Assembly: GCF_000327485.1 (NCBI RefSeq)
Contig: NC_019943.1
Location: 372,001 to 436,000 of the forward strand
Length of the DNA stretch: 64,000 nt
Direction: 5' to 3'
Origin: Methanoregula formicica SMSP
Lineage (GTDB): Archaea; Halobacteriota; Methanomicrobia; Methanomicrobiales; Methanospirillaceae
The notes below the pieces were generated by a model. It was not told the DNA's origin. It did no database searches and saw nothing but the letters and a program-made list of their open reading frames with translations. Shown piece after piece: positions 8,380 to 23,580 of this stretch. How positions within the stretch are numbered: the stretch's first letter is position 1; each line of letters starts with the position of its first letter. The translations under genes were made by a program, and so were the position numbers.

Positions 8380-10019
8380 CCCTCACCGCGTTCATCCTTG
8401 ACGGGTACGTGGACGAGCCCGCGTGCCTCGGCGTCCCCCCCTACATCTCCCCGTATGTCCGCACCGTGGCTGGAGCGCTGCTTGCCCACGGCTATTCCAT
8501 CCGGTATCTCACCATCGACCAGCTGCGTAAAGAGCCGCTGCGTGCTGGTGATCTGAACAAGGCGGAGCTGCTGGTCATGATCGCGGGGGTGACGGTACCG
8601 GGGAAATACCTCGGGGGCACCCCGGCAACGCTCACTGAGATCCAGCAGGTCGGCCACATGGTGAAGGGGCCAAAGAAACTGATCGGGGGCCCCATCGGCT
8701 TTGGGTATGCCGGGAAGGGTGGGCAGAAAGCGGTCCGGCAGGTGATCAGCGGATTTGATGCCCTCCTTTCCGGCGAACCGGCGGTTGCGCTGGACAACTA
8801 CCTGGACGGGAACGAGCCTGAGGGAGTACTGGATTATTCCCGCACCGATCCCTGGAGCATCACAGGGAGCAGTATTGTCGCACAGCATCCCGACTTCCCA
8901 TACGTGATGTGCGAGCTGGAGACTGCCCGGGGCTGTCCCCACGGGGCAACGGGCGGCTGTTCGTTCTGCACAGAGCCGTTCTACGGGATGCCGCGATACC
9001 GGACCATTGCCGCAGTTGCCGGGGAGGTTGCCGCACTCCATGCCCACGGTGCCCGGCACTTCCGGGTAGGCCGGCAGCCGGATGTCCTCGCGTATGGAGC
9101 CGGGCCGGGGGAGTATCCCGCACCGGAACCGGAGAAGATCGAGGCCCTCTTCTCCGCGATCTGTGCTGCCGCCCCGGAACTCCGGACGCTGCATATCGAC
9201 AACACCAACCCGCAGACCATTGCCCGGCATGAGGATGCGGCCCGGGAAGCGCTCCGGGCAATCATCCGTCACCACACCCCGGGCGATGTTGCCGCGTTCG
9301 GGATGGAGACAGCCGATCCTGTGGTTGTCCGGGCAAACAACCTGAAAGCGCTGCCGGATGAAGTCTTCCGGGCCATCGAGATCGTGAACGAAGAGGGGGG
9401 GAAGCGCCGGGACAATGTGCCCGAGCTGCTCCCGGGCCTCAACTTCGTCTGCGGGCTTGCCGGGGAGACGGAAGAGACCTATGATCTCAATGAGCAGTTC
9501 CTCGCCCGTGTCCTGGATGCCGGCCTCTCGGTGCGGCGGGTGAATATCCGGCAGGTGATGCCCTTCGAGGGCACTCGGGCTTATACGGAGAACACGCTTG
9601 GGAAGCACGAACGGAGGTTCCGGCAGTTCAAGGAATATGTCCGGAACCGGATCGACCTGCCGATGCTCCAGCGTGTATTCCCGATTGGCACGGTTCTCCG
9701 GGATGTGCGGGTCGAAGTATCGGGGGACCTCTCGTTCGGGAGGCAGCCGGGCTCTTACCCGATCCTTGTTGGCATCCCGCTCCACCTCCCTGAAAGGACG
9801 GTTACCGACGCCGTTGTCGTTGACTGGGGGATGCGATCGGTCACTGCTTTCCCTGTCCCGATCGTGATCAATACCCTGCCGGCATCTGCGATCAAGTGGC
9901 TGCCGGGCGTGGGGAAGAAGAAGGTGGCAGCTGTTATCGCGAAACGGCCGTTTAAAGACCTTGCAGCATTCCAAAAGGTGGCGGGAAACTCTCCGGTGGA
10001 TGGCCAGCTGAAATTCTGA
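8376..10019 (+). CDS. Radical SAM protein with C-terminal helix-hairpin-helix (COG1031-like)
   Basis: This 547-residue protein has a cobalamin-binding-like N-terminal region (1-165) and a radical SAM core. The cluster cysteines are C187, C195 and C198, a C-x7-C-x2-C spacing instead of the usual C-x3-C-x2-C. FGMETADP and FVCGLAGETEETYD are typical later strands of the barrel. The last 50 residues form a helix-hairpin-helix (WLPGVGKKKVAAVI), a nucleic-acid-binding motif. The combination matches the archaeal COG1031 family, whose reaction is not established. The start codon overlaps the mptE stop. The helix-hairpin-helix suggests a nucleic-acid substrate; that is inference. Confidence 0.88.
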   Translation: MTLTAFILDGYVDEPACLGVPPYISPYVRTVAGALLAHGYSIRYLTIDQLRKEPLRAGDLNKAELLVMIAGVTVPGKYLGGTPATLTEIQQVGHMVKGPKKLIGGPIGFGYAGKGGQKAVRQVISGFDALLSGEPAVALDNYLDGNEPEGVLDYSRTDPWSITGSSIVAQHPDFPYVMCELETARGCPHGATGGCSFCTEPFYGMPRYRTIAAVAGEVAALHAHGARHFRVGRQPDVLAYGAGPGEYPAPEPEKIEALFSAICAAAPELRTLHIDNTNPQTIARHEDAAREALRAIIRHHTPGDVAAFGMETADPVVVRANNLKALPDEVFRAIEIVNEEGGKRRDNVPELLPGLNFVCGLAGETEETYDLNEQFLARVLDAGLSVRRVNIRQVMPFEGTRAYTENTLGKHERRFRQFKEYVRNRIDLPMLQRVFPIGTVLRDVRVEVSGDLSFGRQPGSYPILVGIPLHLPERTVTDAVVVDWGMRSVTAFPVPIVINTLPASAIKWLPGVGKKKVAAVIAKRPFKDLAAFQKVAGNSPVDGQLKF

Positions 10020-19535: not shown

Positions 19536-19914
19536 TTACCGGTGAATGGTGTCTGCCATCTTCCGGACCAGCCCGGGGATATTATCCGCTTTCTTTTGCT
19601 GCCGGGCGCCGATATCAGTAACGATCTCTGCAAGCAGCCTGGCCAGGTAAAGTACCTTCGTCTTCCGTCCCGGGCCGGAATTTTCCTGATCCCGTTCCGA
19701 GATCCATCCCTGTTCATCCAGTTCCTTGAAAATCAGGCTGGCCTCCGGCTGCCGGAGGTTCGACCCGCGCTCGATATCCCGGGGACGTGGTCTCCCCGAC
19801 ACCGGTCAGGAATGCCAGCACGCTGGCAGTGGTCCGCCGGAATCCCAGTTTCCGGAGGATAGTTACAAGTTTGTATTCCTTTTCTGAAAGATAATTCACG
19901 TTCTTGGTTCGCAT
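19536..19914 (-). pseudogene. wHTH transcriptional regulator with frameshift
   Basis: Two overlapping frames form one recognisable winged-helix protein. The first (from ATG 19914) reads KEYKLVTILRKLGFRRTTAS and then LAFLTGVGETTS before losing similarity. The second continues RDIERGSNLRQPEASLIFKE through to GARQQKKADNIPGLVRKMAD and the stop at 19536. The join needs removal of one base in the G-run at 19781-19784 (TCCCCGGG on the coding strand where TCCCGGG would keep the frame). The whole would be about 125 residues. It could be a true lesion, a sequencing error in a homopolymer, or a programmed shift. The protein would bind DNA; its target is unknown. Confidence 0.75.
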
Positions 19915-19966
19915 ATGGTGATCCCTCCTTGTTTCCTGTCCCGGCCCTTCAGCATCTTATAGAATG

Positions 19967-21439
19967 TTATGTCCATTTTTCCAGTCTTCTGACAACCAGT
20001 GCCGCACCTGCGATACCAGCAACGGATATCCACACCGGCAGCGGCGCATGTGTTTTTGTTGGCGTAGGTTTCGTCGTAGGAATTGTCGCGGTCGTTGTCG
20101 GCAGCGTTGTGATTGTTGTCGGAGGAGGGGTTGTCACGATAATATACACCGGTTTTGTTATGGTATTCGTCCCATCTTCGTTCGCGACATCAAGCGAGAC
20201 GGTGTAATTGCCCGGTGTGGAATACGTGTGCACCGGGTTCTGGACAGTTGTATTCGTCCCGTCTCCGAAGTCCCAGAGCCAGATGGTCGGGATATTCATC
20301 GACGTGTCGTTGAACGATACCATCAGTGGTGCGGGGCCAGTGGCCGGAGAACCGGTGAAGTTCGCGACCGGCGGGGCCGGGTTGCGAACCGTGATATAAG
20401 CGGCCTTTTCCATCGTATCGCTGCCGAGCTCGTTCCATGCAACGAGCGAGACATTGTAGGTGCCCGCGGTAGAGTATGTATGCGCCGGGTTCCGTTCCGT
20501 TGCGTTGGTGCCGTCGCCAAAGTCCCAGAGCCACTGTTTCGGGGGTATATCCGAAGTATCCGTGAAGTTGACCGTTAACGGGACTTTACCGGATGTCGGT
20601 GAGGAGGTGAAGTTGGCGAACTGCCGGGCATAGACTTCGAACACTGCAAGTTTCCCGGATCCGGTTTTTCCAATGAAGAACCAGCAGGGTTCCGTAACAC
20701 TCCCCTCTTCGCCATACAAGTGATAACCGGGAGTGATATTGTTTATATAAACAACATCGTCAAAACTATTCCAGGATCCAACGATATCCCCAAGCTGGAG
20801 TTTTTCAACTGCCTCTTTTGCCGGGATTATCGGAATATTCTGAACATAGGTCAGGTTACTCCAGCTCTTGTAGATATTCAGGAGTTGTCCGTTTTCGCCA
20901 AGCTCCAGATTGATTTGATCTTTATCACCACTTACCGGCCTCCCATCGATTAATTTCCGGTAATAGACATTTATCATAACAGGTTCTTTCCGGATTAATT
21001 CCCCGGAACGGGTTTGGTGCTCAACATATTCCGTATAACTACCAGCATATTGGGCATCCGGTGGCAATCCACCAAATTGTTCCATAACTTTTTTTACAAC
21101 TTCTGGTGCATCCTTCTCAGAAGTCACATTCGGTCGAGGATCCCAATTATCGCCAAATCGTTTACTAAATTTGTCTCCCTCCCGGTAATGCTGTTGATAA
21201 ATGGGTAAAGTTGAGGGGCTGGTGGGAACAGTTGTGTTGATTATGATCGATCCGATAAAAGAACGTTCATCCGATTGAACATTTCCTCCTGGAATTGTAA
21301 GGGGAGTTCCCTTATCGATCAGAGAAGAATTAACTTGTTCATTTTCGACGAATCGAAAATTTACACCAATGAGTAGTAGTACGGCACTTATTCCAATGAG
21401 CAAAATCAACAACAGAGCTTTTTTTACATTCGAATTCAT
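19967..21439 (-). CDS. Membrane-anchored PKD protein with PepSY-like N-terminal domain
   Basis: The start at 21439 (MNSNVKKALLL) has GGAG eight bases upstream, inside the end of the preceding gene. An N-terminal membrane helix (residues 7-28) is followed by a domain of about 160 residues with YTEYVE, VYYRKLIDGRPVSG and LGENGQLLNIYKSW, which reads like a PepSY/propeptide-type fold; that is inference. Two PKD domains follow (WLWDFGDGTN twice), then a Thr/Pro-rich stretch and a C-terminal helix (VWISVAGIAGAALVV) with a basic tail. The protein is expected to face the outside, anchored at one or both ends. It is translationally coupled to the NHL/caspase-like gene upstream. Confidence 0.85.
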   Translation of the reverse strand: MNSNVKKALLLILLIGISAVLLLIGVNFRFVENEQVNSSLIDKGTPLTIPGGNVQSDERSFIGSIIINTTVPTSPSTLPIYQQHYREGDKFSKRFGDNWDPRPNVTSEKDAPEVVKKVMEQFGGLPPDAQYAGSYTEYVEHQTRSGELIRKEPVMINVYYRKLIDGRPVSGDKDQINLELGENGQLLNIYKSWSNLTYVQNIPIIPAKEAVEKLQLGDIVGSWNSFDDVVYINNITPGYHLYGEEGSVTEPCWFFIGKTGSGKLAVFEVYARQFANFTSSPTSGKVPLTVNFTDTSDIPPKQWLWDFGDGTNATERNPAHTYSTAGTYNVSLVAWNELGSDTMEKAAYITVRNPAPPVANFTGSPATGPAPLMVSFNDTSMNIPTIWLWDFGDGTNTTVQNPVHTYSTPGNYTVSLDVANEDGTNTITKPVYIIVTTPPPTTITTLPTTTATIPTTKPTPTKTHAPLPVWISVAGIAGAALVVRRLEKWT

Positions 21440-21444
21440 AAACA

Positions 21445-23580
21445 TCACTCCCCATTTTTCTTTACACAATCCCAAGATTTTACGACAATATCGTCTGGAT
21501 TCACATCCGGTTCGACAATTCCGTAACCAGGCAAGTGATCATTATTATACTGAGATTCATTAGCGAAACGTACAGTTGCGGTTATAGGAATTCTGGTGAC
21601 AGTAAAACTAGAACCATCAGGTGATATAATTACAGGACCTTGTACATCCTTCCCGTTATAAACATCAATGGTTGCATTTCTCCACGCTTTTGCTAGTGGA
21701 AGACGGTCTTCCATTGCATATTTGAAAAACTGGTAAGACAATGAAGGATCTGCAATAGAGTCGGTAGAGAAACCAAAAATACCGTGAGTAGTACCTAATG
21801 CGCCATTCCAACGATCATCTTGTAAAACCTGACACGAACTTAATACAACCCATTTATTGTTTTTATTCCACTTCCCTGCAATTTCCTGAGGTGTCAGAAT
21901 ATCGGTATAATCACTTATCGCACAGGTGGTTCGTTTGTATTCACAAATTGAATGTCCGTTAATTCCGATAGTGCAATCCTTTGATTGATTAACCTTGCAT
22001 TCCTCAAGTTTGACGGTGTTAATTATCGCAAGTCCACTTTGATCAAGATGCTGCGGGTCGTAACCTCCATGACCAGTATGCCAGTGTAACGTAGCATTAT
22101 TCAGACCAGCGCCAAGTGTTCCAAAATCTTCGCTGTTTACATCGGTATCATTTTTTGAAAAAATGAGTTTCCATCTTGCATCCTTGCTAATCCACAAGGA
22201 TACATTTTGCATCTCAGCGTCGCTACGGATGAAATGAGGTGGTTGATCATATTTCGAGATAGTATTCGTCATCGAATACGTGAACCGCTCCGGTTGCACA
22301 CCCGGCAGCTTGAAAACCTGGACCCGGTCGTTATCATCGCCGACATATACATAGCCCCGGGTATCGACAGCAATAGCATAGGGAAAATTAAACTCCCCGA
22401 TACCATTGCCGTACGTTCCCCACTGGGTCACATAGGTACCGTCGGATTTGAACTTCTGGACCCGTGAATTCCAAGTATCCACGACATATACATTTCCTGA
22501 TGTATCCGTTGCGATACCGTAGGGACGGTTGAACTGGCCGTTACCTGTACCTCTCGTCCCCCATTGGGCGATATATTTACCGTCAGAGGAAAACTTCTGG
22601 ACACGGTGGTTCGATGAGTCCGCGACATAAACATTACCAGAGGTATCTGTTGCAACGCCATGCAGATAGTTAAACTGTCCATTGCCTGTACCCTCCGTTC
22701 CCCATTGGGATATGTACGAACCACCGGAACTGAATTTCTGGACTCGTTCATTCGCAGAAGATTCCGTTACGTAAACATTACCTGGCGTATCTGTTGCGAT
22801 GCTCCGGGGGAAGTAAAACTGCCCGTTTCCGGCACCTTGCGTTCCCCAATGGGTGAGGAATGTACCATTGGGACCGAACTTCTGGACACGGGAGTTTCCC
22901 ATATCCACGGCATAAATATTGCCCGATGGATCTACAGCAATGCCACTGATCATATAAAATTGTCCGGTGCCTGAACCGTTCGTCCCCCATTGGGCGAGGT
23001 ATGTGCCATCGGACCTGAGCTTCTGGATACGGGAGTTTTTCCCATCCGCGACATATACATTGCCCGATCCATCCTCCGCCATCCCTTCGATATTATTAAA
23101 CTGCCCGGTACTCGTGCCGGATGTTCCCCACTGCATTGCATAGACATAGGATTCAGGGTCAGGACTTCCCGATGCGCTGACGCCGGCCTTCATGAGGCTG
23201 TTACCTGGATGAATGTCACTGGCAGGTTCATCCGTTCTGGCAGGGGGATAACCGGCTCTCAGTGCAAGCCGCTGTGCCATCAGCGAACGATTTTCTGGAC
23301 CGCCAGAGGTTATGATTGTCGGGGCCGTCGCATTATTCTCCTGCGGGGATGTTTGCACTGCCACAGAACTATCGCCAGCATTGCCGGAGGTAATATTGAG
23401 AAACCCGGTCTCATTGCTGTCGTGAGCAGCATCCGGTAAAATGCTGACAGTCTGGTTCACATGCCCTGTTTCTATTACTGCAATATCCGATTCGTTTCCT
23501 GCACTTGCTGTCGGCAAGCCGATGATTATCACGCACACCAGGCACAGGCAGATCCGGTTCCCGATTATGGCTTCTTCCAC
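21445..23580 (-). CDS. Secreted NHL beta-propeller fused to a caspase-like (clan CD-like) domain
   Basis: The GTG start at 23580 has GGAGG eight bases upstream. A signal peptide (about residues 8-28) is followed by a Ser/Thr/Asn-rich linker and six NHL repeats (about 145-425) of the type GNGQFNxPxGIATDTSGNVY. The C-terminal domain (430-711) contains HWHTGHGGYD (His504) and KWVVLSSCQVL (Cys583) followed by LGTTHGIFGFSTDS. A His-Gly and a strand ending in Ser-Cys are the dyad pattern of clan CD peptidases, and from memory the region resembles DUF6345-type domains. Peptidase activity is not proven. The stop overlaps the PKD gene start (TGATG), so the two proteins are probably made together. Confidence 0.85.
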   Translation of the reverse strand: MEEAIIGNRICLCLVCVIIIGLPTASAGNESDIAVIETGHVNQTVSILPDAAHDSNETGFLNITSGNAGDSSVAVQTSPQENNATAPTIITSGGPENRSLMAQRLALRAGYPPARTDEPASDIHPGNSLMKAGVSASGSPDPESYVYAMQWGTSGTSTGQFNNIEGMAEDGSGNVYVADGKNSRIQKLRSDGTYLAQWGTNGSGTGQFYMISGIAVDPSGNIYAVDMGNSRVQKFGPNGTFLTHWGTQGAGNGQFYFPRSIATDTPGNVYVTESSANERVQKFSSGGSYISQWGTEGTGNGQFNYLHGVATDTSGNVYVADSSNHRVQKFSSDGKYIAQWGTRGTGNGQFNRPYGIATDTSGNVYVVDTWNSRVQKFKSDGTYVTQWGTYGNGIGEFNFPYAIAVDTRGYVYVGDDNDRVQVFKLPGVQPERFTYSMTNTISKYDQPPHFIRSDAEMQNVSLWISKDARWKLIFSKNDTDVNSEDFGTLGAGLNNATLHWHTGHGGYDPQHLDQSGLAIINTVKLEECKVNQSKDCTIGINGHSICEYKRTTCAISDYTDILTPQEIAGKWNKNNKWVVLSSCQVLQDDRWNGALGTTHGIFGFSTDSIADPSLSYQFFKYAMEDRLPLAKAWRNATIDVYNGKDVQGPVIISPDGSSFTVTRIPITATVRFANESQYNNDHLPGYGIVEPDVNPDDIVVKSWDCVKKNGE

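Follow-up and report, generated by a model that had tools for sequence, protein, structure and literature searches.

What might a secreted beta-propeller protein, and the membrane-anchored protein encoded directly behind it, do together at the surface of a methanogen? The question is raised by two genes on the minus strand of a 64,000-nucleotide stretch of the Methanoregula formicica SMSP genome (NC_019943.1, positions 372,001 to 436,000; this whole stretch is called the window here, and all coordinates are counted within it). Gene A (21445 to 23580) encodes an NHL propeller joined to a DUF6345 domain, and gene B (19967 to 21439) encodes its predicted partner. A sequence-only reading of the locus had proposed a two-protein extracellular system of protease and inhibitor. 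We find that the DUF6345 domain has a clan CD-like fold and an invariant His/Cys pair, that the first domain of the gene B product has the fold of PepSY-type regulators, and that the two domains are near-obligate neighbors across the genomes in which DUF6345 occurs. The interpretation that we favor is of an extracellular protease module made up of these two genes, in which B would be the propeptide-fold regulator of a clan CD peptidase, A; in our judgement, this interpretation is evenly poised between being right and being wrong.

The terminal domain of gene A

Gene A encodes 711 residues from a GTG start that is preceded by GGAGG. By hydropathy, its residues 1-30 (23491 to 23580) form a hydrophobic N-terminus with the character of a signal peptide, while about residues 150-425 (22306 to 23133) make up the NHL beta-propeller (Pfam, E 1.3e-39) and residues 434-711 (21448 to 22281) exceed the Pfam cut-off for DUF6345 (PF19872; 34.9 bits vs 26.9, E 1.4e-8). 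The window's own genome has one DUF6345 gene copy only, and Methanosarcina acetivorans, a genetically tractable methanogen, likewise has a DUF6345 gene that scores above the cut-off. The sequence-only reading had recognized in this terminal domain the pattern of clan CD peptidases, with a histidine in HTGHGGY and a cysteine in VVLSSCQ, and the pattern has gained weight from conservation, from modeling, from structural matches and from profile-profile comparison.

To begin with conservation, DUF6345 domains were gathered from the order (199 genomes) and the phylum (393 genomes), and 59 distinct ones, mostly about 20% identical to the window protein, were aligned. Both His504, the proposed catalytic histidine (codon at 22069 to 22071), and Cys583, the proposed nucleophile (21832 to 21834), are present in every one of the 59; relatives lacking both residues, named beforehand as the finding on which the idea would fall, do not occur among them. 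The next most conserved positions in this set are Asp681 (58/59; 21538 to 21540) and His599 (57/59; 21784 to 21786). In a second alignment of 58 sequences, which are 16 to 41% identical to the window protein, the only two invariant columns are again His504 and Cys583. The closer relatives of the window protein, a subfamily with 30-41% identity to it, have the motif HxHxGHG.

Clan CD is defined by a histidine and then a cysteine, located at the ends of the b3 and b4 strands (PMC4357240). Gene A has its dyad in this order and under strict conservation, and the strand positions agree as well: in an AlphaFold2 model of residues 434-711 (predicted local distance difference test score, pLDDT, 85; predicted template modeling score, pTM, 0.86), made with a family alignment as input, His504 lies 2 residues past model strand 65-69 and Cys583 lies 2 residues past model strand 144-148. 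Judging from these strand positions and from the structural matches, the two side chains are probably close together in space. An invariant His/Cys pair in sequences as highly divergent as these, in the order and at the strand positions of clan CD, is the pattern expected of catalysis.

Structural comparison leads to the same clan. Among solved structures, the best Foldseek match of the DUF6345 model is SAVED-CHAT 8tl0 (E 2e-5 to 8e-5, probability 1.00), and further matches are to caspase-4, MALT1, caspase-6 and C11 peptidases. A search of the PDB with the DUF6345 profile put 8tl0 near the top at E 1.8 with the GHG and Cys aligned, which is a lead and not a proof. In profile-profile comparison, the domain aligned with CHAT at P 1.1e-4, with GHG placed on GHG and SSC on SAC, and with C14 at P 3.6e-6 over its N-terminal part only; the positive control, CHAT against C14, gave 6.9e-7, and the negative control, the B family against CHAT, gave 0.26. 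Gene A has no Pfam match at E<=1 to either CHAT (PF12770) or the caspase/metacaspase family C14 (PF00656), and by Pfam score belongs to neither; its relation to CHAT shows only in the profile-profile comparison and in the fold.

The likeness to the CHAT proteases of type III CRISPR (clustered regularly interspaced short palindromic repeats) systems, SAVED-CHAT and TPR-CHAT/Craspase, consists of the best structural match, aligned GHG and SC motifs and a similar region following the cysteine. These proteases are, however, cytosolic, with CRISPR partners and SAVED or TPR sensors, whereas the gene A product is secreted and carries a propeller, with no link to CRISPR. The idea that the pair itself belongs to a CRISPR or other defense system was dropped, as no such genes were recognized in the neighborhood, which was not searched systematically.

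It is at this point that one can ask if gene A is a peptidase at all. The DUF6345 domain could instead be a binding or structural domain built on the clan CD fold, or another kind of cysteine-dependent enzyme; the template modeling scores (TM-scores) of the model against clan CD structures are only moderate (0.43), and conservation at His599 and Asp681 nearly equals that of the dyad, so that the active site may exceed a dyad. Set against this is the fact that the sole invariant columns are a His and a Cys, in the order and at the strand positions of clan CD (PMC4357240), and we consider a non-peptidase role very unlikely. Our preference is for the peptidase: as modeled, the domain is folded like a caspase-type protease and carries the corresponding His/Cys active-site pair, and it would act through this pair.

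The window protein also has a Cys-rich insertion (C528, C536, C546 and C553; residues about 525-560, 21895 to 22010, minus strand) between the strands bearing the catalytic candidates. This insertion is missing in nearly all other aligned DUF6345 members, and the AlphaFold2 confidence is low in that stretch.

The fold of the gene B product

According to the sequence-only reading, the two genes overlap, and the open reading frame of gene B is listed with a TTG start at 21475. The TTG start is improbable, and a better one is the ATG at 21439, which has GGGGAG 8 bases upstream and gives a protein of 490 residues. A GTG at 21448 is also possible and would create a 4-base overlap, GTGA, with the stop of gene A; the overlap therefore hinges on the choice between these two start codons, while the genes are abutting and co-directional in either case. 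The protein has an N-terminal hydrophobic anchor (21344 to 21433), a first domain of novel appearance that we call the B domain (20606 to 21268), two PKD domains (20414 to 20614, Pfam PKD; 20138 to 20377, Pfam PKD_4) and a C-terminal transmembrane segment (19991 to 20047), the first and last of these being assigned by hydropathy. Taken together, the reading frames, Pfam and hydropathy bear out the initial description of a secreted NHL propeller protein followed by a membrane-anchored PKD protein.

The B domain had been likened to a PepSY-type inhibitor or propeptide, and at the level of fold this turns out to be right, as judged from the Pfam matches of the family and the structural matches of the model. 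When matches at E up to 1 were counted among 93 B homologues, 33 matched YycI (best 8.8e-9), 35 matched FTP (best 1.4e-5) and 39 matched DUF4901/YcdB (best 1.5e-4), and a sequence search of the PDB with the B profile gave no match. The AlphaFold2 model of the B domain (pLDDT 93.4) matched YycI 2o3o in Foldseek over 11 chains (E 2e-6 to 3e-5, probability 1.00), with weaker matches to propeptide chains of vibriolysin MCP-02, 3nqz/3nqy (E 4.5e-3 and 8.1e-3, probability 0.98 and 0.97). The B domain thus has the fold of the PepSY/FTP/YycI superfamily, and the structure predictions that had been suggested for the terminal domain of gene A and for the B domain alone yielded a clan CD-like and a YycI/FTP-like fold, respectively. 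A role of B as an enzyme was dropped, since its Pfam matches include no catalytic signature.

Directly downstream of gene B is a small regulator resembling helix-turn-helix proteins (19536 to 19925, minus strand), the coding sequence of which is split over two frames, with MRTKNVNYLSEKEYKL...LTGVGETTS in one and RDIERGSNLRQPEASLIFKELDEQGW... in the next, and which appears to be frameshifted.

Pairing of the two domains across genomes

If the two proteins work together, how regularly are their genes found together? On the mapped loci, the DUF6345 gene is followed at once by the B gene on the same strand. Taking the 63 distinct domains that had been selected by DUF6345 and do not stand at a contig end, 56 adjoin a B domain and 4 are fused with one. 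Profile searches for both domains over the 199 genomes of the order placed B 72-280 bases downstream of DUF6345, or fused to it, at 60/64 DUF6345 places, a count that omits the ten places of one genome, G042; contig breaks explain two of the four places without B. At the level of genomes, B is present in 41 of the 43 that have DUF6345 and in 24 of the 156 that do not (Fisher p 4e-23), by which chance adjacency was dismissed. The survey of co-occurrence in archaea that had been proposed for this pair gave a strong result. Elsewhere in the phylum, the association is seen in further families (L100-L105, L110, L128-L130), among them the Archaeoglobaceae (L131). A search for related loci found no match when the single window protein was the query and 12 named loci when an alignment was.

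The genome G042 had the look of a counterexample, with ten DUF6345 genes within about 58 kb (C1:1403701-1461439; L067, L107) and no B by hidden Markov model (HMM). Seven downstream neighbors were checked, of which four belong to L067 and three to L107, and each turned out to be a diverged relative of B (HMM E 2e-4 to 4e-10); hhalign assigned the four of L067 as such with a probability of 97.8. Some of the DUF6345 genes of this genome belong to almost identical blocks that recur at a spacing of about 10 kb.

The sequence-only reading had noted that both modules share a chain in some DUF6345 proteins, and such chains do exist. The order DUF6345-B is found in L051 (twice), L056 and L069, and the order B-DUF6345 in a Deinococcus plasmid protein (L090), from the one bacterial sequence that the survey covered; in the 1862-residue protein of L051, both DUF6345 and FTP are over their Pfam cut-offs. 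The two domains have diverged in step: the distances among DUF6345 domains and those among B domains correlate with r 0.83 over 65 pairs, and for paralogues within one genome r rises to 0.96 (permutation p 5e-4). This co-divergence supports a lasting partnership.

Co-divergence would also be expected if B were an anchor, a localizer or a folding chaperone with no inhibitory role, in the manner of YpeB with SleB, in which case A may hydrolyze a protein of the S-layer or envelope. Further points for this view are the topology, A having a signal peptide only and B one or two membrane segments, and the surface modules present on both. NHL, Kelch and RCC1 propellers and PKD repeats are typical modules of the cell surface; the propellers attached to the caspase-fold domain are NHL (the window and L050), Kelch (L052) or RCC1 (L054), other members have PKD domains instead, and B has PKD repeats that number two in the window and ten or eleven in L111, L113 and L126. 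What a pure anchor leaves unexplained is the type of fold that B has, that of a propeptide or inhibitor, and we regard it as quite unlikely. In one locus, L061, a PKD protein beside the DUF6345-B pair (8666-9820, plus strand) ends in a GHG...SGC domain (YFAGHGSAG ... VYSGCETG) and has no Pfam name beyond PKD; this is possibly a second caspase-like domain.

Some loci have 2-5 tandem B copies behind one DUF6345 gene. The longest arrays consist of 4-5 B genes, 65-84% identical, per single DUF6345 gene (L099, 4362-9243; L096, 3515-7510; L062, 7269-12234), and such multiplicity is easier to reconcile with a set of substrates than with a set of inhibitors. Other caspase-like systems, in bacteria, cleave adjacent substrates, and B could likewise be a substrate or signal transducer, with A cleaving B, or its linker to the PKD and transmembrane part, and so releasing or altering it. 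The B proteins of the window type, membrane-anchored and with long Thr-rich linkers, would lend themselves to this, and YycI-like domains act in transmembrane signaling (PMC4282423). On the other side, many B proteins stop right after the B domain and have an N-terminal anchor only, and the fusions and the propeptide-type fold are no less in keeping with a regulatory subunit; nor did a conserved cleavage motif come to light, though no search aimed at one was made. We judge the substrate or receptor role unlikely, and have kept it alive because of the tandem copies and the closeness of B to YycI.

B-domain genes without DUF6345 are also found among other secreted or lipoprotein-like genes (L114, L116-L119), three of these loci (L114, L118, L119) having near the B-domain gene a conserved protein of 730-770 residues that ends in FA.KEY... 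B may have another partner there.

A proposed regulated protease module and its relatives

Returning to the protease module with B as its regulator, the following sequence of events can be envisioned. The gene A product would be secreted, its NHL propeller recognizing or positioning a target and its DUF6345 domain acting as a cysteine peptidase of the caspase/CHAT type through His504 and Cys583. Gene B, probably on the same transcript, would supply a membrane-anchored protein that displays a double PepSY/FTP-type (YycI-like) domain, and the binding of this domain to the DUF6345 domain would hold the latter folded, latent and in place on the cell surface, to be freed by a signal or target. The action of B is modeled here on the FTP/PepSY propeptides that serve thermolysin-type metallopeptidases in cis and on YpeB, which serves SleB in trans.

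Several findings weigh against this scheme. In structure, B comes closest to YycI, whose regulatory target is a histidine kinase rather than a protease (PMC4282423). Up to five B genes stand behind one DUF6345 gene, more than stoichiometric inhibition would call for, and roughly a dozen B genes of the order lack a DUF6345 neighbor; neither the runs of B behind one A-type gene nor the lone B genes are predicted by a simple model of one inhibitor for one enzyme. Neither Pfam nor NCBIfam gave a match to the B domain of the window itself, its assignment coming from homologues and fold, and the TM-scores of the DUF6345 model are, as noted, moderate. The co-divergence of the pair does not prove contact, because linkage alone can yield it.

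Precedents for such a regulator are found both in cis, in the PepSY/FTP propeptides that inhibit M4 peptidases, and in trans, in YpeB, which localizes and inhibits SleB (PMC4282423); a double-PepSY protein of DPANN archaea is a predicted inhibitor of as yet unidentified proteases (PMC6393860). The M4 propeptides (FTP + PepSY, as in vibriolysin MCP-02, 3nqz) share with B the fold, the position of a regulator beside a peptidase and, in Deinococcus, the B-DUF6345 order in a single chain; their partner is a metallopeptidase, whereas here the partner has the fold of a cysteine peptidase and B is usually a separate, membrane-anchored protein. YpeB resembles B in being a PepSY protein that localizes and inhibits a hydrolase (PMC4282423), but SleB is a cortex-lytic enzyme of bacterial spores and not a clan CD peptidase. 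YycI, the WalKR/YycFG regulator (2o3o), has the closest fold, is the best Pfam match of the B family and has an N-terminal membrane anchor; it works with YycH on a histidine kinase, whereas B adjoins a caspase-fold gene and no histidine kinase was identified as its partner.

In a collection of open-licence papers, we found no mention of DUF6345 and nothing relevant on PepSY domains with caspase or cysteine peptidases, or on caspase-like proteins with propellers in methanogens. Each part is of a known kind; what appears to be new is how they are combined and what DUF6345 is assigned to. More broadly, and leaning slightly toward doubt, we put forward that these genes represent an undescribed group of peptidases, extracellular and caspase-like in fold, that is widespread in archaea and present in some bacteria and would be controlled by a separate membrane partner of the PepSY/FTP fold and directed by interchangeable NHL, Kelch or RCC1 recognition heads.

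Until now, DUF6345 has been described only as a domain of unknown function; linking it to the fold of clan CD, to an invariant pair of His and Cys and to a seemingly obligate partner gives it a concrete and testable chemistry. Little is known of how methanogens carry out and control extracellular proteolysis, and roughly one in five of the genomes sampled from the order has the DUF6345-B pair. The single-copy locus of the window, together with its multi-copy relatives, offers a way to ask whether the propeller chooses the target. If the scheme is true, a PepSY/FTP-type regulator would here serve a caspase-fold enzyme instead of a metallopeptidase, and a known pairing would have been moved to clan CD.

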